DNA from: a virus
Reading direction: 5' to 3' (one strand)
Virus record (IMG/VR): IMGVR_UViG_3300031521_000375
Span: 1 to 21,838 of that record
Length of the DNA stretch: 21,838 bases
Position 1 is the first letter of the stretch. Every line of letters starts with the position of its first letter. The position numbers were made by a program, and so were the translations under genes. Below, piece by piece: positions 813-12,742 of this stretch. The notes under the pieces were generated by a model. It was not told the DNA's origin. It worked only from the letters and a program-made list of their open reading frames with translations, and did no database searches.

Positions 813-3770
813 ATGGATGAAGAATTATATCATATTGGAACGCCCAAGAAATCAGGAAGATATCCATGGGGGTCAGGTAAGAATCCAAGTCAAAGAAATA
901 GAAACTTTTTAAATTTTGTTAAAGATTTAGAAGATAAAGGTTTATCACAAGTCGAAGTGGCTAGAGGTTGTGGAATGACCACTACTGAGCTTAGAAAACG
1001 AAGATCATTAGCTGCTATGGAAATAAAAAAAGAGAATTTTGCTTTAGCTACTACTTTAAAAGAAAAAGGACTTAGTGGTAATGCAATTGCAGAACAACTT
1101 GGATTGCCAAACGAATCGTCGGTTAGGTCATTACTTAATCAAGATATACAAGATAGAAGTCAAAAAACAACTACCATTGCTAACATGTTAAAAGATGCTG
1201 TTGGTGAAAATAATCTGATTGATGTTGGAATTGGACAGGAAAGATTCTTAGGGGTTAGTCGAACTAAAATGATGACTTCTATTGAAAAAATAAAAGATGA
1301 AGGTTACACTATGGATCCAATTTTCGTAGATCAACCAGGAACAGGTAGTGGTAAAAAAACCACAATATTAGTATTAAATAAACTTTCTGAACAATTTCCA
1401 GATGTTAAAGACCGTAAAACTGAGATTTATAGAAGACAAGCTGAAATTAAAATGGTAATAGATCATCATTCTGAGGATAATGGCAAAACTGGTTATGGAA
1501 TAGAATTTCCAACAAGTGTGGATTCAAAGAGAATTGCAATTAAATATAAAGAAGATGGTGGTTCAGATAAAGATGGAGTTATTGAACTTAGAAGAGGTGT
1601 AGAAGAACTCTCTCTTGGAAATACTAACTATGCCCAAGTTCGTATTATGGTTGATGGAACCCATTATTTAAAAGGAATGGCTATGTATTCTGATACTCTC
1701 CCAAAAGGAACCGATATATTGTTTAATACAAACAAGGGTAAAGAAACTCCTAAACTGGACGTATTAAAGAAGCTTAAAACTGTTAGTGAAACAGATAAAA
1801 CTATTGATCCAGATAATCCATTTGGTGCAAGAATTAAAGACTTCACTGGGCAAAGACATTATATAGATGATAAAGGTAAAGATAGACTATCACCTATTAA
1901 TAAAGTAAATGATGAAGGTGATTGGCAAGAATGGTCTAAAAATTTATCATCTCAATTTCTATCAAAGCAACCACTTGCATTAGCCAGACAGCAATTAGGT
2001 TTAGCCTTTGATGCTAAAAAAGAAGAGTTCGATACAATTATGTCTCTAACAAATCCTACTATTAAAAAGAAATTATTAGAAGAATTTGCTGATGGATGTG
2101 ACTCAGATTCTGTGCATTTAAAAGGTGCAGCAATGCCTAGACAAGCAGCTCAAGTTCTTTTACCAGTTACCACTATGAAAGATAATGAAGTGTATGCACC
2201 TAATTTTAATCATGGAGAATCAGTAGTATTGGTTAGATATCCACATGGTGGAACATTTGAAATTCCAGTATTAACTGTTAATAATAACCAACGAGATGCA
2301 AAAAAACTTCTTGGTCAATCTAAAGATGCAGTTGGAGTTAGTCCTAAAGTTGCCGAAAGATTATCAGGTGCAGATTTTGATGGTGATAACGTAGTGGTTA
2401 TACCTAATAAGAATGGAAATACAATTCATTCTACACCAGCTCTTACAGGCTTAGTTGGGTTTGACGCTAAAGCTTTATACAAAGCATATGAGGGAATGCC
2501 TAAAATGACATCTCATACTAAAGGTATGGAAATGGGAAAGGCCTCTAATTTAATTACTGACATGACAATTGCAGGTGCACCACCAGATGAAATAGCCAGA
2601 GCAGTTAAACATTCAATGGTTGTAATTGATGCTGAAAAACATAATCTTAATTATAAATTATCCTATGAACAGAATGGTATAGCCGCTCTTAAGAAACAAT
2701 ATCAAACTGCAACAGGTGGAGCACAAACCCTTCTTTCTAGAGCTTCTTCTGATCTTAGAGTAGATGTAAGAAAAGAGAAATCAGTATATAAGTCTGAAAA
2801 GAACATGACACCTTCTGAAGTAATAGATTTTAGAGCAGGAAAAAAGATACTTAATATGACTCCACAAGAATTAATAGATCATAACAATGGAAAGAAAGTC
2901 TACGAATATTCTGGTGATGTTTATTATAAACCATTAACCGTTAAAAAAGAGAAGGCTGTATCTGATATGACTCCTGCTGAATTAGAAAAGTATAATAAGG
3001 GAAAGAAGATATACATTCCTGGCAGTTCAACTAAAGTAGAGAAAGCAGTATCTGATATGACCCCTGCTGAATTAGAGAAACATAAAGCAGGTAAGAAGAT
3101 CTATCTCTATTCAGATACCCCTACTAAAAAGACAATCGTCTCTAGTAAGATGGCAGAAGAAGCGGATGCATTTAACTTATCATCTGGAACTATTATGGAA
3201 ACAGTATATGCTACTCATGCTAATAAATTAAAAGCTCTTGCTAATGAGGCAAGAAAAGAATATCTAGTAACCCCATCATTAGTATACTCTCAATCGGCTA
3301 AACTAGTGTATGATAAGGAAGTTAAAAGTCTTAATGCTAAACTTAATGTGGCCCTTATGAATGCTCCACTAGAAAGGCAGGCCATACTACTAGCCACTGC
3401 TAAGGTTAAAGCTAAGAAGGCTGACAATCCAGCAATGGATAAGGCAGAACTTAAAAAAATTAATGGCCAAGCCCTTATGCAAGCAAGACTTCTTGTTGGT
3501 TCTAAGAAAGAACCCATCGTTATTGAACCCAAAGAGTGGGAGGCCATACAAGCAGGTGCCATTAGTGACAGTGCACTTCAAAGAATACTTAATAATACAA
3601 AACCTGAAGTTGTTAAACAGTTGGCTATGCCTAGACCCAATACTGTTTCAGGTCTAACTCCTGCTAAAGAAGCACGTGTTAGATCAATGTTGGCAGCAGG
3701 CACTACACAAAGAGATATAGCAACTGCATTAGGTATAAGCCTATCAGAAGTTAATGCTATAAACAATTAA
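813..3770 (+). CDS. Phage single-chain RNA polymerase-like protein with DFDGD motif, HTH ends and SGRYPWGSG N-terminal tag
   Basis: A 985-residue protein starting at ATG 813 after an AGGGGGA site. Residues 5-22 carry the motif YHIGTPKKSGRYPWGSG. Two HTH-like segments follow (about 35-67 and 78-109: KGLSQVEVARGCGM, KGLSGNAIAEQLGL). The core contains SGADFDGDNVVV with Asp521, Asp523 and Asp525, matching the metal-binding DxDGD loop of double-psi beta-barrel RNA polymerases (bacterial beta', YonO, QDE-1). About 45 residues earlier lies VRYPHGGTFEIPVL, placed like the NR-PT-H segment of beta'. An earlier barrel-like region (about 285-305, YLKGMAMYSD and DILFNTNKG, with Lys287 and Lys300) may be the second barrel. 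Four MTPxE...GKK repeats lie at about 663-775, and a C-terminal HTH at about 950-985. Single-chain polymerases of this class make phage RNA. Lengths and motifs fit, but activity is inferred. It could instead be an inactive relative used in DNA binding. Confidence 0.65.
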   Translation: MDEELYHIGTPKKSGRYPWGSGKNPSQRNRNFLNFVKDLEDKGLSQVEVARGCGMTTTELRKRRSLAAMEIKKENFALATTLKEKGLSGNAIAEQLGLPNESSVRSLLNQDIQDRSQKTTTIANMLKDAVGENNLIDVGIGQERFLGVSRTKMMTSIEKIKDEGYTMDPIFVDQPGTGSGKKTTILVLNKLSEQFPDVKDRKTEIYRRQAEIKMVIDHHSEDNGKTGYGIEFPTSVDSKRIAIKYKEDGGSDKDGVIELRRGVEELSLGNTNYAQVRIMVDGTHYLKGMAMYSDTLPKGTDILFNTNKGKETPKLDVLKKLKTVSETDKTIDPDNPFGARIKDFTGQRHYIDDKGKDRLSPINKVNDEGDWQEWSKNLSSQFLSKQPLALARQQLGLAFDAKKEEFDTIMSLTNPTIKKKLLEEFADGCDSDSVHLKGAAMPRQAAQVLLPVTTMKDNEVYAPNFNHGESVVLVRYPHGGTFEIPVLTVNNNQRDAKKLLGQSKDAVGVSPKVAERLSGADFDGDNVVVIPNKNGNTIHSTPALTGLVGFDAKALYKAYEGMPKMTSHTKGMEMGKASNLITDMTIAGAPPDEIARAVKHSMVVIDAEKHNLNYKLSYEQNGIAALKKQYQTATGGAQTLLSRASSDLRVDVRKEKSVYKSEKNMTPSEVIDFRAGKKILNMTPQELIDHNNGKKVYEYSGDVYYKPLTVKKEKAVSDMTPAELEKYNKGKKIYIPGSSTKVEKAVSDMTPAELEKHKAGKKIYLYSDTPTKKTIVSSKMAEEADAFNLSSGTIMETVYATHANKLKALANEARKEYLVTPSLVYSQSAKLVYDKEVKSLNAKLNVALMNAPLERQAILLATAKVKAKKADNPAMDKAELKKINGQALMQARLLVGSKKEPIVIEPKEWEAIQAGAISDSALQRILNNTKPEVVKQLAMPRPNTVSGLTPAKEARVRSMLAAGTTQRDIATALGISLSEVNAINN
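2799..3120 (+). repeat. Four-copy MTPxE...GKK protein repeat inside the polymerase-like gene
   Basis: Four units of the pattern MTP-x-E-(9 residues)-GKK are encoded in a row. The last two are also alike at the DNA level with a period of 90 bases (around 2951 and 3041, both reading GTATCTGATATGAC). The first two are diverged and spaced more closely. The block lies between the polymerase-like core and the C-terminal helical part, so it looks like a lineage-specific expansion within a loop. Lysine-rich linkers separate the units. Confidence 0.8.
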
Positions 3771-5190: not shown

Positions 5191-5898
5191 ATTAATAATC
5201 AAGAAGAAGACTATCTAGCGCATGTTGGAGTTTTAGGGATGCATTGGAATCATCATAAAAGTAAAAACACCATAAAAACTGAAACCTCTAATATTGATAA
5301 ATGGGGAACAGATAAAGACCATAATATTCTTTATGTAACTGGACTTAGTGGGTCTGGTAAATCGACCTTAGCTAAAAAATTAAAAGATAAGAACACTAAT
5401 ATTATTCATCTAGATCCGTACTTTGAGAAAATGGATAAAAATGTTTCAGATAATATACAAGATAAAGAGTTTAATAGTTTCTTAAGTAAAAATTTTCCAG
5501 ACTATAAAAGTATAGCTAATCCTAAAGATGGAGAAAGACATTCTAAACAATGGTGGGATAAAGTTGATAATTTAATGAATCAAACTGAAAAATTTGCAGC
5601 TAATCAATACCCAAAGAAAAAAGTTGTAATAGAGGGTGTGCAATTAAGTGACAATACAACCTATCCAAACAAAGACTTCTTCAAGGATAAACCATTAGCC
5701 ATAACCAAAACAAATGCTGCAAAATCTTATTTAAGGGCAGCCAGAAGAGATGGTAAAAGCTTGACTACTATGACTAAAGAAGCTAAATTATTTATGCAAT
5801 GGTATGGTAATATGAATAATAGTATATCAAAACTATCCAAAACAGCAGACACCAAAAAAGGTAAGGATTGGGTGAATAAATATTTAGCTAGTAAATAA
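5191..5898 (+). CDS. P-loop kinase-like protein with N-terminal HxGVxGMHW tag
   Basis: The frame is open from 5170. The ribosome binding site GGAGGTGA (5178-5185) is ideally placed for an ATT codon at 5191 (235 residues); the conventional in-frame choices TTG 5170, TTG 5176 and GTG 5182 lie before or within it. Near the N-terminus is YLAHVGVLGMHWNHHK. A P-loop follows at VTGLSGSGKST (Walker A, about residues 50-59), then HLDPYF, KKVVIEGVQL (Walker B-like) and SYLRAARRDGKS, which could be a lid with arginines. Such small kinases phosphorylate nucleotides, nucleosides or other small substrates; the substrate cannot be read here. It lies between the HNH and connector genes, so it is probably a structural-module protein carrying an enzymatic domain, perhaps packaged in the virion (inference). 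Confidence 0.7.
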   Translation: MNNQEEDYLAHVGVLGMHWNHHKSKNTIKTETSNIDKWGTDKDHNILYVTGLSGSGKSTLAKKLKDKNTNIIHLDPYFEKMDKNVSDNIQDKEFNSFLSKNFPDYKSIANPKDGERHSKQWWDKVDNLMNQTEKFAANQYPKKKVVIEGVQLSDNTTYPNKDFFKDKPLAITKTNAAKSYLRAARRDGKSLTTMTKEAKLFMQWYGNMNNSISKLSKTADTKKGKDWVNKYLASK

Positions 5899-5919
5899 AA
5901 TTAAAAAGGGGGAATCCTT

Positions 5920-6291
5920 ATGGGCAGTATACTAACCTCAATAAAAAAATTATTAGGGATAGGCGACGAAGATGTCAATTTTGATCCTGACATAATTATG
6001 CACATTAATTCAGTATTCTTTATTCTTAAACAATTGGGAGTTAATTCAGACATACCCTTTTCAATTGAGGACAAGCTCCCAACTTGGGAAGAATATACTC
6101 TGGATAATTTAGATCTTAATGCTATAAAGTCTTATATGTATTTAAAAGTTAAATTATTATTTGATCCGCCATTGAGTAATGCCTTAGTTCAAATAATTAA
6201 AGATCAAATAGCAGAACTCGAATTTCGAATAATGATAACTGTCGACCCAAAACCTATAGTACAGGAGGTAATAGATTATGGAGAATGTTAA
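5920..6291 (+). CDS. Head-tail connector-like protein
   Basis: A 123-residue protein from ATG 5920 after an AAGGGGG site. It begins GSILTSIKKLLGIGDED and has FDPDIIMHINSVFFILKQLGV, then W-x-x-Y, LNAIKSYMYLKVKLLFDPP and a C-terminal helix ELEFRIMI. This mostly helical pattern is familiar from small gp6-like head-tail connector (adaptor) proteins of clostridial siphoviruses, which form a ring under the portal. The usual place for such genes is downstream of the capsid gene; here it is before TerL. The call is from remembered family resemblance. It overlaps the next gene by 14 bases. Confidence 0.6.
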   Translation: MGSILTSIKKLLGIGDEDVNFDPDIIMHINSVFFILKQLGVNSDIPFSIEDKLPTWEEYTLDNLDLNAIKSYMYLKVKLLFDPPLSNALVQIIKDQIAELEFRIMITVDPKPIVQEVIDYGEC

Positions 6292-6904
6292 TACTTTAGA
6301 ACACACGGGAGTTATGGGAATGCATTGGGGCCATAAAAAATCTTCAGGTTGGTCTGCAAAAGATAATACTGTAGCCAAACAACACGTAACAAAATCTGGA
6401 GGAAAAATAGCAAAGCCTTATGTTAAACCGGCTACAACAAAAATCACTTCTACTGGTCCAAGACTAACTGATGCTCAACTTAAAAGTAGAATCAATAGAT
6501 TAGAAATGGAAAAGAAGTATGCTACTCTTACAAAAAAAGAAATGTCCCCTGGTATGAAATTTGTTAAGGATATGCTTCTTAATACTGCTAAAACTGCAGT
6601 AACAACCTATAGTACAAAATACATTAACAAAACATTAGAGGGACTTTTAAAGGCTAAAATTCCAACTGATACACCTACTCCTACTCCTACACCTCCGCCT
6701 GCACAACACTCTAATACTTCTACCTCTAGCCAACACTCTAATACTCGTTCTAATAATACTAGGAATAATGCACGTACTCGTACAACTAATTATACATCCT
6801 ATCATGCTCCTTCTGCAACAACTCGTAATTGGATGGCTTCTAGATTAGCACTTCCAGTTCCTAGTAGTACATCGTCTAATAGAGTATTACTTCCATGGCA
6901 ATAA
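6278..6904 (+). CDS. Low-complexity head-module protein with N-terminal HxGVxGMHW tag
   Basis: A 208-residue protein from ATG 6278 with a strong AGGAGGT site. Residues 8-18 read HTGVMGMHWGH, almost the same as the tag of the kinase-like protein. The middle (about 60-130) is basic and helical with LKSRINRLEMEKKYATLTKKE; the C-terminal third is low complexity with TPTPTPTPPP, two copies of QHSNT and many Asn, Thr and Arg. No enzymatic motif or membrane segment is seen. Proteins with this tag (typically HYGVKGMKWG) are common beside portal and terminase genes of Firmicute phages, and I know of no established function. A scaffold, internal head or cargo protein is plausible. It ends three bases before TerL. 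Confidence 0.65.
   Translation: MENVNTLEHTGVMGMHWGHKKSSGWSAKDNTVAKQHVTKSGGKIAKPYVKPATTKITSTGPRLTDAQLKSRINRLEMEKKYATLTKKEMSPGMKFVKDMLLNTAKTAVTTYSTKYINKTLEGLLKAKIPTDTPTPTPTPPPAQHSNTSTSSQHSNTRSNNTRNNARTRTTNYTSYHAPSATTRNWMASRLALPVPSSTSSNRVLLPWQ
6671..6745 (+). repeat. Low-complexity short repeats in the tagged protein gene
   Basis: ACTCCT-type hexamer repeats around 6673-6690 encode the Thr-Pro run. CAACACTCTAATACT occurs twice (6704-6718 and 6731-6745, offset 27), encoding QHSNT each time. The copies suggest recent slippage or duplication in a tolerant linker. Confidence 0.75.
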
Positions 6905-6907
6905 AAT

Positions 6908-8656
6908 ATGTCATTAGACAATAAAGCAACTCCTAAATATTATGGAAAATTTAAAGCAGCAGTAATGAGGGGTGACATTCCAGTTTGTAAAGAGATATCT
7001 ATGGAAATGAATCGAATAGATGATCTAATAGCAAATCCTGGAGTATATTATGATGATAATGCAGTAGAAGGATTCATAGGTTATTGTGAGGAAGAACTAA
7101 CTTTAACAGATGGTTCAGATTTACATTTACTTGACAGTTTTAAAGTATGGGCTGAACAAATATTTTGTTGGTTCTATTTTGTTGAGAAAAGTATTTATGT
7201 GCCAGATAAAGATAATCATAGTGGGCGTTATGTTCGTAAGAATATTAAGAAACGATTAATTAATAAGCAATATTTAATAGTAGCAAGAGGTGCTGCTAAG
7301 TCTATGTATGCTTCGTGTATACAAAGTTACTTTTTAAATGTCGACACCTCTACTACTAATCAGATAACTACTGCCCCTACAATGAAACAGTCGGATGAAG
7401 TAATGTCTCCAATAAGAACGTCTATAATAAGGGCAAAAGGTCCATTATTTAAATTCTTAACAGAAGGGTCATTACAAAATACAACAGGATCTAGGGCCAA
7501 TCGACAGAAACTTGTATCTACTAAGAAGGGTATTGAAAATTTCTTAACTGGTTCGTTGCTTGAAATACGTCCAATGTCTATTGCTAAACTTCAAGGACTA
7601 AGACCATATGTTTCAACTGTAGATGAGTGGTTATCTTGTGATATAAGAGAAGATGTTATTGGTTCAATAGAGCAAGGTGCATCTAAATTAGATAATTATT
7701 TAATTATAGCAATGAGTTCAGAAGGAACAGTTCGTAATGGCAGTGGAGATACAATAAAGATGGAGTTAATGGATATACTAAGAGGTGATTATGTTAATGA
7801 GCATGTATCTATATGGTATTATAAACTCGACGACATACAAGAAGTTAATGATCCATCAATGTGGTTAAAAGCAAATCCTAATCTTGATAAGACTGTATCT
7901 TATGAAACCTATCAACTTGATGTTGAGAGAGCCGAAAATGCTCCAGCATCAAAGAACGATATTTTAGCCAAACGTTTTGGCATACCACAGGAAGGTTACA
8001 CTTATTTCTTTACTTATGAAGAAACACAAACTCATCGTAAAAGAGATTTCTGGAATATGCCTTGTTCTATGGGTGCTGATTTATCACAAGGAGATGACTT
8101 CTGCGCTTTTACATTCTTATTTCCATTACCACGTGGTCAGTTTGGTATTAAAACAAAAAGTTATATAACTGGTTTAACCTTAAGAAAACTTCCTGGTGCT
8201 ATGAGAAACAAATATCAGGAATTTATTGATGAAGGTAGTTTAATAATCATGGATGAAGGATCTGTTCTTGATATGATGGAAGTCTATGAAGATTTAGATC
8301 AATATATTCTAAACTCTTGTTATGATATTCGAACATTTGGTTTCGATCCTTATAATGCTAAGGAATTTGTAGCTAGATGGGAACAAGAAAATGGTCCATT
8401 TGGAATTGAGAAAGTTATTCAAGGAGCTAGAACAGAATCAGTGCCCCTTGGCGAATTGAAAATTTTATCAGAAGAGAGAATGCTCTTATTTGATCAAGCA
8501 CTAATGTCATTTGCTATGGGTAATTGTATAACTCTTGAAGATACAAATGGTAATAGAAAATTATTAAAAAAACGTTATGATGAAAAGATAGATAACGTTG
8601 CCGCTTTACTAGATGCTTATGTAGCTTATAAAGCAAATAAAGATGCTTTTGAATAA
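6908..8656 (+). CDS. terL: Terminase large subunit
   Basis: A 582-residue DNA-packaging motor protein. The ATPase part has a Walker A-like ARGAAKS (residues 126-132) in YLIVARGAAKSMY and a Walker B STVDEW with Asp239 and Glu240. The C-terminal nuclease part has MGADLSQGDDF (Asp391), GFDPYNAKEF (Asp480) and KIDNVAALLDAYVA near the end, the usual set of acidic metal-binding residues in RNase H-like terminase nucleases. The N-terminal YYGKFKAAVMRGDIPVCKEI and EELTLTDGSD fit the family start, supporting ATG 6908. No ribosome binding site is visible before this ATG; the stop of the upstream gene is only three bases away, so translation probably relies on coupling. Length is normal for the family and no break is seen. 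Confidence 0.95.
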   Translation: MSLDNKATPKYYGKFKAAVMRGDIPVCKEISMEMNRIDDLIANPGVYYDDNAVEGFIGYCEEELTLTDGSDLHLLDSFKVWAEQIFCWFYFVEKSIYVPDKDNHSGRYVRKNIKKRLINKQYLIVARGAAKSMYASCIQSYFLNVDTSTTNQITTAPTMKQSDEVMSPIRTSIIRAKGPLFKFLTEGSLQNTTGSRANRQKLVSTKKGIENFLTGSLLEIRPMSIAKLQGLRPYVSTVDEWLSCDIREDVIGSIEQGASKLDNYLIIAMSSEGTVRNGSGDTIKMELMDILRGDYVNEHVSIWYYKLDDIQEVNDPSMWLKANPNLDKTVSYETYQLDVERAENAPASKNDILAKRFGIPQEGYTYFFTYEETQTHRKRDFWNMPCSMGADLSQGDDFCAFTFLFPLPRGQFGIKTKSYITGLTLRKLPGAMRNKYQEFIDEGSLIIMDEGSVLDMMEVYEDLDQYILNSCYDIRTFGFDPYNAKEFVARWEQENGPFGIEKVIQGARTESVPLGELKILSEERMLLFDQALMSFAMGNCITLEDTNGNRKLLKKRYDEKIDNVAALLDAYVAYKANKDAFE

Positions 8657-8673: not shown

Positions 8674-8712
8674 ATGATATTTAGTCAAAAAAGGAGGGGT
8701 GTAGATAAATGA
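8674..8712 (+). CDS. 12-codon mini-ORF coupled to portal gene
   Basis: ATG 8674 opens a 12-codon frame (MIFSQKRRGVDK) ending in TGA 8710-8712, which overlaps the portal ATG 8709 in an ATGA arrangement. A strong AAGGAGGTGA lies just upstream, overlapping the TerL stop, and a second AAGGAGGGG inside the mini-ORF serves the portal gene. It may be a leader peptide that couples or tunes portal translation, or it may be chance. There is no recognisable protein domain. Confidence 0.35.
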   Translation: MIFSQKRRGVDK

Positions 8713-10088
8713 GATTTAATGATAGACTACAACATGCTTGGAATGCATTCACTAATAAAGATCCAACAGGTATGGATTGGATGGGTAATACTCGAGGTTA
8801 TGGTCCAGGATATTATACACGACCTGATAAAAATAGACTATCTGGTAGTACCAATCAATCAATAGTTTCATCCTTATATAATAGAATAGCCATTGATGTT
8901 GCTTCTGTTAAAATATCACATGTTAGACTTGATGATAATAAGAGATATTTAGAAGATATGGATTCATTACTGAATGAGGCATTAACAGTAGAGGCTAATA
9001 TTGACCAAACTGGACGCGGTTTAATACAAGACTTAGCAATGTCAATGTTTGAAGAAGGATGTATTGCAGTAGTGCCAATCGATACAACTATGGACCCCAA
9101 ATTAACTAACTCCTATGACATTGAGACTTTAAGAGTGGGAAGAATAGTTGAGTGGTATCCAGAACATGTAAAAGTTGAAGTTTATAATCAGCGAACTGGT
9201 TTAAAAGAACAAATTACAGTAAGTAAAAGTTTAACAGCTATTATAGAGAATCCTTTATATGCTGTAATGAATGAACCAAATTCTACATTAAAACGTTTGA
9301 TTAGAAAACTCAATATTTTAGATTCAATTGACGAACAAAGTGGTGCTGGTAAATTGGATATAATTATTCAACTACCTTATGTTATAAAAACTGAAGCACG
9401 TCGACAACAAGCCGATATTCGAAAGAAAGATCTAGAAATGCAATTAAGCGGATCAAAATATGGTGTTGCATATACTGATGGAACTGAAAAGATCACTCAG
9501 TTAAACCGACCAGCCGAGAATAATTTGATGGCTCAGATTACGTATCTAACGAGTATGTTGTATAACCAGTTAGGTCTAACCGAGAGTGTCTTTAATGGAA
9601 CGGCTGACGAAAAAACAATGCTTAACTATTTTAATAGAACAATTGGTCCAATATTGAATGCTATAACAGATGAATTTAAACGTAAATTCTTAACTAAAAC
9701 TGCTCGAACTCAGAAACAAACAATTACTTATTTCAGAGACCCATTCCAACTTGTGCCTGTTACTGAGTTAGCCAATATAGCAGATAAATTTACGCGTAAT
9801 GAAGTCTTATCATCTAATGAGTTCAGAGGTATTATTGGTTTTAAGCCTTCAAAAGATCCTAAAGCTGATGAATTACGTAATAAGAACTTGAATAGTGCCA
9901 ATGCTCAAACACCTAATGATCCTAATACACCTATCGACTCAACTACTGATCCAACCATTGACCAAAATGCACCAACACAAACAGATGTTTCTACTCAACT
10001 TGATGCCCAAGGAGTTATAATGAACAATTTACTTAAAAGTCTAGAATCTGAGGTGGATAAGATTTTAGGTGGTAGTGAAAATGGATAA
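8709..10088 (+). CDS. Portal protein
   Basis: A 459-residue protein that forms the dodecameric ring at the capsid vertex through which DNA enters and leaves. Start ATG 8709 after AAGGAGGGG. Recognisable portal features are the N-terminal FNDRLQHAWNAFTN, the SSLYNRIAIDVASVKISHVRLD region, LNEALTVEANIDQTGRGLIQDLAMSMFEEGCIA (the membrane of helices after the wing), the clip/stem region with KLDIIIQLPYV, and the C-terminal YNQLGLTESVFNGTADE and TYFRDPFQLVPV segments. The C-terminal 60 residues are rich in Asn, Pro, Thr and Asp and probably disordered. It lies directly after TerL and before the capsid genes as expected. Its last bases overlap the next gene. Confidence 0.9.
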   Translation: MRFNDRLQHAWNAFTNKDPTGMDWMGNTRGYGPGYYTRPDKNRLSGSTNQSIVSSLYNRIAIDVASVKISHVRLDDNKRYLEDMDSLLNEALTVEANIDQTGRGLIQDLAMSMFEEGCIAVVPIDTTMDPKLTNSYDIETLRVGRIVEWYPEHVKVEVYNQRTGLKEQITVSKSLTAIIENPLYAVMNEPNSTLKRLIRKLNILDSIDEQSGAGKLDIIIQLPYVIKTEARRQQADIRKKDLEMQLSGSKYGVAYTDGTEKITQLNRPAENNLMAQITYLTSMLYNQLGLTESVFNGTADEKTMLNYFNRTIGPILNAITDEFKRKFLTKTARTQKQTITYFRDPFQLVPVTELANIADKFTRNEVLSSNEFRGIIGFKPSKDPKADELRNKNLNSANAQTPNDPNTPIDSTTDPTIDQNAPTQTDVSTQLDAQGVIMNNLLKSLESEVDKILGGSENG

Positions 10089-10881
10089 TATAATTGGAAT
10101 TGATAGAGTAGAAGCATTTATACGACATTTTGTTGAACAACCTTATGATCCTGTAAAGGCTCATGAATACTATCTAAAGAATAGAGAACTTAAAGGTCGT
10201 TCAACAAGTGGAATGAGTGATGCTCAGAAAGAACAATGGACTTATTCTAAAGATCAAATATCTTCAGATAAGAAACAAAAGGTTGCAGCGGATAAACTTG
10301 CAAATGATCAAAAAATTGAAGCATTTCAAAAAACTGCTGATGAGACTCGTAAGAGAATTTCCGAAAAACTTAAAGCATATGAGGAAAAACTTACAAAGGA
10401 AGCAGATGCTGAACGAATTAGTATAGCTACTAAACTTAAATCTGATATTGCTAATGTTGCACCAATACCTAAAGGAGTTAGTGGTGATCAAAGGGCCATT
10501 CTTGTCGAAAGCAGAAACAAAAAAATAGATGATATACGTAATGCTGCTGGTTTAAATAGAAATGATTTAGCATCTAATACTAAATCATCACGACAAGATA
10601 TAAGTGCTACTGTGTCAGGCGAAAGAGAGAAAACTGCAACTGATTTAAAAGCTACAATCACCAAAACAAGAGATGCTTATGCAAAAGCAAAAGTTGAACT
10701 TGATGCTAATTATGAAACTACATATCAGAAAGCGTATAATAAAGTAATTACAACTATTGCTGGAAAGCCTAAGACAAAAGGCAAGGGTTCTAAAGCAAAA
10801 GATGCAAATGACTTTAAACCTAAAGATAGTAATACTATCTTTTATACAAAAGCTGAGATGGCAGCCAAGAATCATAAATAA
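10081..10881 (+). CDS. Coiled-coil head-module protein with DPVKAHEYYLKNRELKGR motif
   Basis: I place the start at ATG 10081, overlapping the portal stop by eight bases (266 residues), with GGTGGTAGTG upstream; an earlier GTG at 10069 is possible. Near the N-terminus is the motif DPVKAHEYYLKNRELKGRST, familiar from other proteins of clostridial phage head modules. The remaining protein is highly charged, Lys/Asp/Ala-rich and strongly predicted by eye to be helical with coiled-coil periodicity (about residues 40-220), ending in a basic KGKGSKAKD tail and YTKAEMAAKNHK. No enzymatic motif or membrane span is seen. Position between portal and protease-capsid suggests a scaffold or internal head protein, but a scaffold-like delta region is also present in the next gene. 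Confidence 0.65.
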   Translation: MDNIIGIDRVEAFIRHFVEQPYDPVKAHEYYLKNRELKGRSTSGMSDAQKEQWTYSKDQISSDKKQKVAADKLANDQKIEAFQKTADETRKRISEKLKAYEEKLTKEADAERISIATKLKSDIANVAPIPKGVSGDQRAILVESRNKKIDDIRNAAGLNRNDLASNTKSSRQDISATVSGEREKTATDLKATITKTRDAYAKAKVELDANYETTYQKAYNKVITTIAGKPKTKGKGSKAKDANDFKPKDSNTIFYTKAEMAAKNHK

Positions 10882-10918
10882 TTAGATTAATAATATTAAT
10901 ATGAAGGAGGAAATTAAA

Positions 10919-12742
10919 ATGCCTAAATTTGACTTTAGTGGATATGCCACTAAGAATGACATTAAATGTTCTGACGGAAGAACTATCCGTAAAGATGCAT
11001 TTAAAGAAAATAATGGAGTTACAGTACCTTTAGTTTGGCAGCACATACACGATAATCCTGCCAATGTACTAGGCCATGCTCTTCTTGAAAATAGAGAAGA
11101 TGGTGTATATTGTTATTGTTCGTTTAATGATACTGCAGCTGGTAAAGAATCCAAAACCCTTGTTGAACATGGGGATGTTAAATCGTTATCCATATATGCT
11201 AATAAATTAGAACAAAAAGGTTTTGATGTTATGCATGGAATGATTAGAGAAGTTAGTCTTGTATTAGCAGGAGCAAATGAGGGTGCATATATAGACAATC
11301 TTAGTATTCAACATGGAGATTCCTATGAGACGGTGGATGATGAGGCTATAGTTTATATGGATGAACCAATTAGTTCAGAGGAAATAGAACATGCAGCTAC
11401 AAAAGTTGTTGAGAAGCCTACTGAACCAGTTAAGCCAGTTGAAGATAAAAAGCCTGCTGAACCAGTTAAGTCAGTTGAAGATAAAAAGCCTGCAGCTGAG
11501 AAAACATTGCAAGATGTATTTAATACACTAAATACAGAACAGCAAAATATGGTATATGCTATGCTTGCTGATGCTTTGGGAGAAAATGATACTCCTACTC
11601 CAGAACCTACTGTAGATCCTAAAAAAGATACAACAAAACCTAATGGCAATGACAAAGTTGTTGCACATTCAATTGAAGAAGGGGGAAAAGATATGAAAAC
11701 AAACGCATTTGACAAAAAAGAAGATAACAAAGAGGTGGCTTTAAGTCATTCCCAGGTAACTGAGATTTTCACTGATGCTAAAAAGGGTGGTAGTTTGAAA
11801 GAATCCTTCCTTGCTCATGTACAAACTTATGGTATAGAGAATATTGATTTCTTATTCCCAGATGCAAGACTTGTTAATGGGACACCTGAAATAATAAAGA
11901 GAGATGATGTCTGGGTAGAAGCAGTTTTATCAGCAGCAAATCATTCACCTTTTAGTAGAATCAAATCTACAGCAGTAGATCTTACAGCTGATGAAGCTAG
12001 AGCTAAAGGTTACCTTAAAGGCGGTTTAAAGAAAGATGAAGTTATTAAACTTCTTAAGAGAGTAACAACTCCTCAAACCATCTACAAGAAACAGAAACTT
12101 GATAGAGATGATATAGTTGATATAACAGATTTAGACATAGTAGTATGGCTTAAAGCTGAGATGAGAACTATGTTAAATGAAGAAATAGCAAGAGCAATTC
12201 TAGTTGGCGATCAACGTAGTGAAGCTGACCCAGATAAAATCAATACTGATAATGTAAGACCTATATATCTTGATGATGTTCTATATGCACCTCATGTTGA
12301 TGTATCAGCTGATCCCGAAACAATGATTGATGAGATATTAAGAGCTAAAGGACAATATAAGGGTTCAGGTAATCCTACTTTCTATGCTACTCAAGCTAAC
12401 ATTATAGAGATGCTGCTTGTAAGAGATACAACTGGTAGAAAGATATATTCAAATATATCCGAACTTTGTCTTTCTCTTGGTGTATCTAGTATCATGGAAG
12501 TTCCAGTTATGGAAGGCGTTTCTCGTATGGGAACAGAAGCAACACCTCTTCAACATGACCTTATTGGAATAATTGTTAATCTTAAAGATTATACAATAGG
12601 TGCTGATAAAGGCGGAGCAATTAATATGTTCGATGATTTCGACATCGACTACAATCAACAGAAATACTTAATTGAAACTAGATGCTCTGGTGCTTTAACT
12701 AAACCTTACTCTGCTATAGTTATAGAAAAGAAACACGTTTAG
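10919..12742 (+). CDS. Prohead protease - major capsid protein fusion (HK97 type)
   Basis: Start at ATG 10919 (607 residues), eight bases after AAGGAGG; an earlier in-frame ATG at 10901 overlaps that site. Residues 1-140 are an HK97-type (S78-like) maturation protease: FSGYATKND, then VWQHIHDNPANVLGHA with the candidate catalytic His (His42 or His44), VKSLSIYAN with the candidate Ser (Ser89 or Ser91), and MIREVSLVLAGANEGAYI. Residues 150-258 form a linker with 12-residue repeats and a helical DVFNTLNTEQQNMVYAMLADAL segment, like the scaffolding delta domain. From Met259 comes the HK97-fold major capsid protein: LKESFLAHVQTYGIENIDFLFPDA, ARAKGYLKGGLKKDEV, KKQKLDRDDIVDITD, MLNEEIARAILVGD. The enzyme would cut itself off and trim the shell during maturation. 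The fused arrangement is unusual but known in clostridial phages. Confidence 0.9.
   Translation: MPKFDFSGYATKNDIKCSDGRTIRKDAFKENNGVTVPLVWQHIHDNPANVLGHALLENREDGVYCYCSFNDTAAGKESKTLVEHGDVKSLSIYANKLEQKGFDVMHGMIREVSLVLAGANEGAYIDNLSIQHGDSYETVDDEAIVYMDEPISSEEIEHAATKVVEKPTEPVKPVEDKKPAEPVKSVEDKKPAAEKTLQDVFNTLNTEQQNMVYAMLADALGENDTPTPEPTVDPKKDTTKPNGNDKVVAHSIEEGGKDMKTNAFDKKEDNKEVALSHSQVTEIFTDAKKGGSLKESFLAHVQTYGIENIDFLFPDARLVNGTPEIIKRDDVWVEAVLSAANHSPFSRIKSTAVDLTADEARAKGYLKGGLKKDEVIKLLKRVTTPQTIYKKQKLDRDDIVDITDLDIVVWLKAEMRTMLNEEIARAILVGDQRSEADPDKINTDNVRPIYLDDVLYAPHVDVSADPETMIDEILRAKGQYKGSGNPTFYATQANIIEMLLVRDTTGRKIYSNISELCLSLGVSSIMEVPVMEGVSRMGTEATPLQHDLIGIIVNLKDYTIGADKGGAINMFDDFDIDYNQQKYLIETRCSGALTKPYSAIVIEKKHV
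11423..11494 (+). repeat. Two 36-base tandem repeats in the protease-capsid linker
   Basis: Bases 11423-11458 and 11459-11494 are tandem copies with two mismatches, each encoding a 12-residue unit EPVK(P/S)VEDKKPA. This is a flexible Pro/Lys/Glu linker between the protease and the delta-like helix; the copy number is likely to vary among relatives. Confidence 0.85.
11679..11695 (+). promoter_or_regulatory. Internal ribosome binding site and start for free capsid protein
   Basis: AAGGGGG at 11679-11685 lies seven bases before an in-frame ATG at 11693-11695. Starting there would give a 349-residue capsid protein beginning MKTNAFDKKE without the protease. The purine block encodes EEGGKDM, so it could be simple coding constraint, but its spacing is ideal, and a capsid shell needs far more capsid than protease. 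Confidence 0.5.

Follow-up and report, generated by a model that had tools for sequence, protein, structure and literature searches.

The locus analysed here raises the question of why two otherwise unrelated proteins, encoded next to the head genes of a virus, share one short sequence close to their N-termini. The window, meaning the whole stretch of DNA that was analysed, is a 21.8 kb fragment of one virus record. Its ORFs at 5191-5898 and 6278-6904 directly precede the genes for terminase, portal and a protease-capsid fusion. The two tagged genes and their immediate neighbours are as follows:

5191..5898 (+): P-loop NTPase/kinase-like protein, tagged; open frame from 5185, likely start ATT at 5191
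5209..5259 (+): tag of the P-loop protein, DYLAHVGVLGMHWNHHK; tag profile E 1.1e-7
5341-5367 (+): Walker A motif of the P-loop protein, GLSGSGKST
5920..6291 (+): connector protein (PF24829), a head gene sitting between both tagged genes
6278..6904 (+): tagged conserved protein; positional counterpart of Lactococcus phage 1706 orf7
6290..6340 (+): tag of the conserved protein, NTLEHTGVMGMHWGHKK; tag profile E 1.4e-6
6908..8656 (+): terminase large subunit
8709..10088 (+): portal protein

Translation of the P-loop ORF gives (M)NNQEEDYLAHVGVLGMHWNHHK and translation of the ORF at 6278-6904 gives MENVNTLEHTGVMGMHWGHKK. Soon after their starts the former reads DYLAHVGVLGMHW and the latter NTLEHTGVMGMHW. 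The P-loop gene probably begins at ATT 5191, the coordinate already given in the sequence-only reading, with the codon lying about 8 nt after GGAGG and aligning with a TTG codon in the 71% identical relative L223, whose homologue keeps the tag as DYLSHVGVLGMRWGHHK. ATT is an unusual start codon that would escape gene callers. That both proteins carry the same tag, as originally proposed, is borne out by a profile of 297 tags, with 295 originating outside the window, which matches both copies with the E-values listed above. Both also match the Pfam family DUF7211 (PF23847), with E-values of 8e-4 for the P-loop ORF and 3e-5 for the 6278 ORF; these scores of 19.2 and 23.8 bits fall below the curated cut-off of 27 bits, which related tag copies elsewhere exceed. 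The core motif of DUF7211, HxG[VI]xGMxW, is present in both window copies.

Outside the tag the two proteins belong to different families, and conservation is limited to the tag, in agreement with the initial view of them as otherwise unrelated. The P-loop body yields weak kinase-type matches and only 3 relatives were found in IMG/VR, while the 6278 body represents a different, conserved family. Searching solved structures returned no relative of the P-loop protein and none of the tagged set. The 6278 protein consists of the tag, a disordered linker, a two-helix LTDAQLKSRINRLEMEKKYATL region and a Pro/Ser/Thr-rich tail. A structural model based on 53 sequences (mean pLDDT 67) contains confident helices at 65-87 and 91-127 and leaves the tag region unstructured (pLDDT 55-60). 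The possibility that the motif forms the core of a folded domain was thus rejected for the 6278 protein, based on the low confidence and lack of structure of the tag in the model. The model of the P-loop protein, built from two sequences, reached a pLDDT of 47, too poor to judge the tag or seek folds, and a fold search was skipped for this reason.

Tag loci were collected from at least 120 IMG/VR stretches, retrieved with a degenerate DNA pattern for HxGVxGMxW, from eight phage records and from the window. Among the matches listed, 123 loci contain 283 ORFs with 306 tags, per-locus counts not being an unbiased census because the tag itself fetched most of these loci. In its short form of about 17 residues the tag reads [DE]x[LI]xH[YHF]G[VI]xG[MQ]xWG, and the consensus of 297 tags is [DE]x[LI]xH[YHF]G[VI][KL]G[MQ][KR]WG[VK]R[RK], with Leu or Ile at position -2 from the tag His in 97% of them. 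A chance origin of the tag was rejected based on its absence from 388 of 391 genomes and from 14 control genomes. Most copies are N-terminal as first described; about 51 of the 306 instead lie inside longer polyprotein-like ORFs, which can contain up to four tags each. A single 1172-aa ORF in one locus (L053, 3779-7294, minus strand) encodes four tags with a DFDGD string between tags and is unlike the usual polymerase.

The tag is portable. Among the matches listed, 296 tagged bodies fall into 119 unrelated clusters, of which 94 are singletons. Several bodies occur together in 83 loci, and 65 of these contain no two that are related. When 99 tagged representatives from different clusters were aligned, well-conserved columns were found in the tag alone. 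All 99 match the 25-position DUF7211 model at E <= 0.001. This family is catalogued in Pfam without function, consistent with the earlier statement that no function is established, and a literature search found no paper naming DUF7211 or printing the tag motif. Recognisable bodies include GNAT acetyltransferases, LigT/2H phosphoesterases, an ADP-ribosyltransferase, an M90 peptidase, a P-loop enzyme and a PBCV-type basic adaptor domain, with most bodies not assigned to a known family. One tagged ORF shows a family match to the NCBIfam model XopAD/skwp and to related hypothetical-protein models. The largest tagged family, which is found almost universally with 99 bodies across 86 loci among the matches listed, includes the 6278 ORF of the window. 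No matches to an anti-phage defence library were found among 99 tagged proteins.

Tagged bodies are basic, with a net charge per residue of +0.09 versus -0.01 for neighbouring ORFs (p 3e-102). Averaged by cluster the net charge is +0.10, and 94% of clusters are positive. A membrane-like segment is found in 11% of tagged bodies versus 4% of controls, and some tagged proteins are annotated as membrane proteins. Tagged genes also turn over between close relatives. The tagged P-loop gene is common to the window and L223; L223 encodes three further tagged genes between terminase and portal, absent from the window, and an extra tagged module fused to its 6278 homologue. The tagged module that comes first in this fusion (L223, 2041-3207; AIIGEIHKPEMIDYYDKLL...DHHLRS) resembles an enzyme and precedes the conserved tagged protein.

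Tabulating fused domains and gene neighbourhoods, as the sequence-only reading had suggested, gave the 119 body clusters and, in addition, a consistent head-gene position upstream of the protease-capsid fusion. In capsid-fusion loci, 369 of 369 tagged ORFs are encoded on the capsid strand and 364 lie upstream, mostly within 2-8 kb. Where all landmarks are present, 341 of 348 tagged ORFs are located either before the terminase (157) or between terminase and portal (184). An exception to the head-gene position is Caudovirus D_HF5_2C (L128, 7307-9333), with tagged ORFs flanked by the genes for major tail protein and tape measure. When loci were retrieved through the capsid fusion alone, 45 of the 47 that extend at least 4 kb upstream proved to be tagged, and one of the two others has a degenerate tag.

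The tag and the fusion are also found together at the level of genomes. Among 391 Clostridia genomes, 3 encode the tag and the same 3 the full fusion, and across 50,697 phage records the tag is found in 238 and the capsid fusion in 246. Counts of both are equal for Arthrobacter (95), Gordonia (55), Streptomyces (54), Curtobacterium (7) and Microbacterium (4). For Lactococcus, 6 records with the tag compare with 13 with the fusion, a shortfall at least partly due to divergent tags missed by the query because phages 1706 and P078 do carry tags. The motif had been considered frequent in Firmicute phages; among named phages it is instead commonest in those of Actinobacteria. The portal and close terminase homologues share the distribution of the tag, and phages with only distant portals or terminases fall outside it. 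What the co-occurrence of tag and fusion identifies is therefore a lineage of phages; it does not single out one binding partner. A role in targeting or docking, as proposed early on, is favoured by the 119 clusters, the basic bodies, the head-gene confinement, the disordered tag and the annotation of 1706 orf7; docking to portal, scaffold or capsid-protease subunit is equally compatible with the data, because all are co-inherited.

The protease-capsid fusion, proposed here as recogniser and/or processor of the tag, and its predicted sites are:

10901..12742 (+): prohead protease fused to HK97-type major capsid protein; alignment with phage genes annotated 'major capsid and protease fusion protein' extends over 99%
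11306..11320 (+): predicted processing site IQH/GD, following the protease domain; His present in 100% of 131 fusions
11384..11398 (+): predicted processing site IEH/AA, linker; His in 92% of 131 fusions
11660..11674 (+): predicted processing site VAH/SI, linker; His in 52% of 131 fusions
11741..11755 (+): predicted processing site LSH/SQ right before the capsid domain; His in 90% of 131 fusions
11810..11824 (+): further LxH site LAH/VQ close to the capsid domain start; His in 82% of 131 fusions

Such [LI]xH-type sites are found at fixed positions in 131 distinct fusions. In 41 protease-capsid linkers, [LIVM]xH[SAGD][DE] was observed 114 times versus 5.4 times in shuffles, and Leu, Ile, Val or Met occupies position -2 for 254 of 296 linker His versus a background of 20%. 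The linker thus looks like a multiply cut propeptide. Within 45 residues upstream of internal tags, [LIVM]xH is found in 21 of 51 cases versus 13% in shuffles, whereas in tagged bodies with the tag masked and in other long ORFs it is near background. With no general enrichment in tagged bodies, the signature is therefore confined to the tag, the inter-module linkers and the protease-capsid linker.

Two further proteins of the window carry N-termini that share part of the tag:

813..3770 (+): RNA polymerase with DFDGD motif; phrog_4291, E=0
819..878 (+): N-terminus of this polymerase, sister to the tag, EELYHIGTPKKSGRYPWGSG; [LI]xH..(S)GRYPxGSG
10069..10881 (+): helical protein encoded between the portal and capsid genes; phrog_11413
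10111..10200 (+): N-terminus of this portal-capsid protein, a third variant, EAFIRHFVEQPYDPVKAHEYYLKNRELKGR

An N-terminus of the type [DE]x[LI]xH[YI]G..xSGRYPWGSG is present in the polymerase of the window and in nearly all relatives with an intact N-terminus, and phage records encoding it belong to nearly the same genera, with nearly the same counts, as those encoding the tag. In the portal-capsid protein, [LIVMF]xH is located at most 25 residues upstream of a motif of the YY.RTR.LKGR type, and a short distance ahead of YDPxKAxEYY..LKGR, in 21 of 21 relatives found. The [LI]xH part is common to the tag, the polymerase N-terminus and the portal-capsid protein N-terminus. A tag subtype found in four loci (L247, L105, L106 and L110), HHGI.GQ.WG..NGPPYPLG, resembles the SGRYPWGSG ending of the polymerase, hinting that the tag and polymerase variants may be related. 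Virion RNA polymerases are known from phage N4 and crAss-like phages. Like these, the polymerase described here is phage-encoded and may travel in the head, and its N-terminus carries a sister tag; packaging of this DFDGD-type enzyme is a prediction.

A possible link between tag and virion comes from Lactococcus phage 1706, reportedly described by Garneau et al. in 2008. Its orf7, placed like the 6278 ORF of the window, carries two tags and is annotated in the record as 'structural protein', which suggests the presence of a tagged protein in virions. Pepy6 gp019, with one tag, is annotated as 'virion structural protein' by similarity to 1706 orf7.

Taken together, these results give good support to a portable signal for docking or head loading, and we consider it probable that the tag specifically serves as a capsid-targeting signal that loads internal or ejected proteins into the head. 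Recruitment, cleavage, ejection and cargo function, as well as a code common to polymerase and portal-capsid protein, are the inferred parts of the following model. Unrelated proteins would gain the tag N-terminally or, in polyprotein-like ORFs, at the beginning of every module. The tag would then recruit its bearers into the assembling prohead, whose major capsid protein carries its protease as a fusion partner. Tagged proteins would be packed together with DNA, which could account for the strong positive charge of their bodies, and would probably be delivered into the host along with it, where enzymatic ones may act as early effectors. Cleavage could take place after the tag His or, in polyprotein-like ORFs, at upstream [LIV]xHS sites, and the RNA polymerase and the portal-capsid protein may use the same code as the tag.

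The best reading by analogy is that the tag works like the capsid-targeting sequence (CTS) of T4 or the corresponding signal of phage P1 DarB. The prohead site consensus of T4 is [LI]xE. Like the T4 CTS, the tag is a short portable N-terminal signal on a diverse range of small proteins and is found beside a prohead-protease signature; unlike it, the tag contains [LI]xH, and no sequence similarity would be expected. In addition, tagged phages differ from T4 in host, in the fusion of protease and capsid and in their polyprotein-like tandem cargo. T4 internal proteins are highly diverse defence proteins in which the CTS alone is conserved (PMC3012670), and a short terminal peptide on unrelated bodies is likewise what is found here. 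For P1 DarB, the N-terminal 30 residues are enough for a foreign protein to be taken up by the head (PMC9024508); in contrast to that one large protein, a single tag is found on many bodies in many phages. Because the presumed-cut residue differs and the conserved part of the tag follows the presumed cut, the tag is not classed with either system. This last difference also argues against head loading, as the targeting peptide of T4 is removed, and the basic bodies would equally suit DNA- or RNA-binding proteins acting in the cell.

The tag could alternatively be, in the main, a recognition or cleavage element of the prohead protease, with the stretch before the His as propeptide and the conservation after it as specificity context, an explanation to which we assign somewhat less than an even chance. 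It would account for the presence of [LI]xH in the tag, the polymerase N-terminus, the portal-capsid protein and the protease-capsid linker, and a precedent exists in the head protease gp245 of SPN3US, which cuts after AxE at several sites per propeptide and favours Ser after the cut (PMC10052503). The [LIV]xH[SAG][DE] signature of tagged phages similarly combines a short site rule with multiple propeptide sites, although the SPN3US protease is a separate protein with another site rule and that of tagged phages is fused to the capsid. The residues after the His fit less well: the prohead-site signature recurs at conserved positions of the lineage's own protease-capsid propeptide, but Tyr, His or Phe followed by Gly in the tag contrasts with Ser, Ala or Gly followed by Asp or Glu in the linker, and HxGVxGMxWG is conserved over about 10 residues after the His, far beyond any linker site. 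Due to the differing residue after the His, the tag may be bound and yet escape cutting. Removal of the tag by the prohead protease, raised as a possibility by the sequence-only reading, is plausible as [LI]xH repeats the linker signature, with cutting after the tag His itself being slightly less probable than its absence. Head loading and cutting after the His are compatible and not exclusive readings. A more far-reaching version, which we regard as rather doubtful, is that the protease of every capsid subunit acts as cargo receptor. A substrate-like [LI]xH plus a motif particular to each class (GVKGMKWG in small cargo, SGRYPWGSG in the polymerase and YDPxKAxEYY..LKGR in the portal-capsid protein) would then recruit each class into the prohead, so that one code would load a transcription machine and exchangeable host-takeover proteins in phages of human gut, soil and rumen.

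Three other explanations appear less probable. The connector, terminase and portal genes are bordered by tagged genes, 1706 orf7 is annotated as structural, the distributions of tag and portal match and the tagged ORFs of D_HF5_2C are enclosed by tail genes, all of which could mean that the tag docks proteins to the head exterior or neck (portal, connector or head-tail interface) as minor structural or head-completion proteins. This is unlikely, since 119 unrelated, fast-exchanged bodies that include enzymes, together with their basicity, better fit packed cargo. Even more improbable is a targeting signal acting within the infected cell, directed at the membrane, nucleoid, phage factory or a host protein and unrelated to the virion. 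The excess of membrane-like segments and the membrane annotations described above would suit it; confinement of the tag to the head-gene operon of one capsid lineage, the tagged structural protein of 1706 and the match between the tag and protease-linker sites do not. Finally, the near-universal family and the basic composition common to most tagged bodies could indicate that the tag is what remains, at the N-terminus, of a single ancient family, with bodies diverged beyond recognition and no function of its own. We consider this very improbable given that bodies match unrelated folds (GNAT, 2H phosphoesterase, ADP-ribosyltransferase and P-loop) and that the tag is the best conserved part, is repeated within single ORFs and is disordered in the 6278 model.

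Portable capsid-targeting signals as such are already known; a head-loading tag would be a new and far more widespread form of them, with a separate code and a protease fused to the capsid protein, based on a motif so far known only as DUF7211. If this is true, a large set of phages infecting Gram-positive bacteria would possess an equivalent of what has mainly been described for T4 and P1, and DUF7211 would gain a function. The 17-residue signature would reveal, directly from sequence, candidate proteins delivered with DNA by phages of Actinobacteria, Clostridia, lactococci and gut bacteria, amounting to over a hundred candidate early effectors and anti-defence proteins, and could be used as a protein-delivery tag for phages of Gram-positive bacteria. 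A cleavage rule would be predicted for a large family of fused capsid proteases, and a packaged RNA polymerase would be predicted in actinophages. In the window, the DFDGD-type polymerase is encoded near the head genes; in many actinophages its homologues are located near the right genome end and are annotated only as helix-turn-helix DNA-binding proteins.
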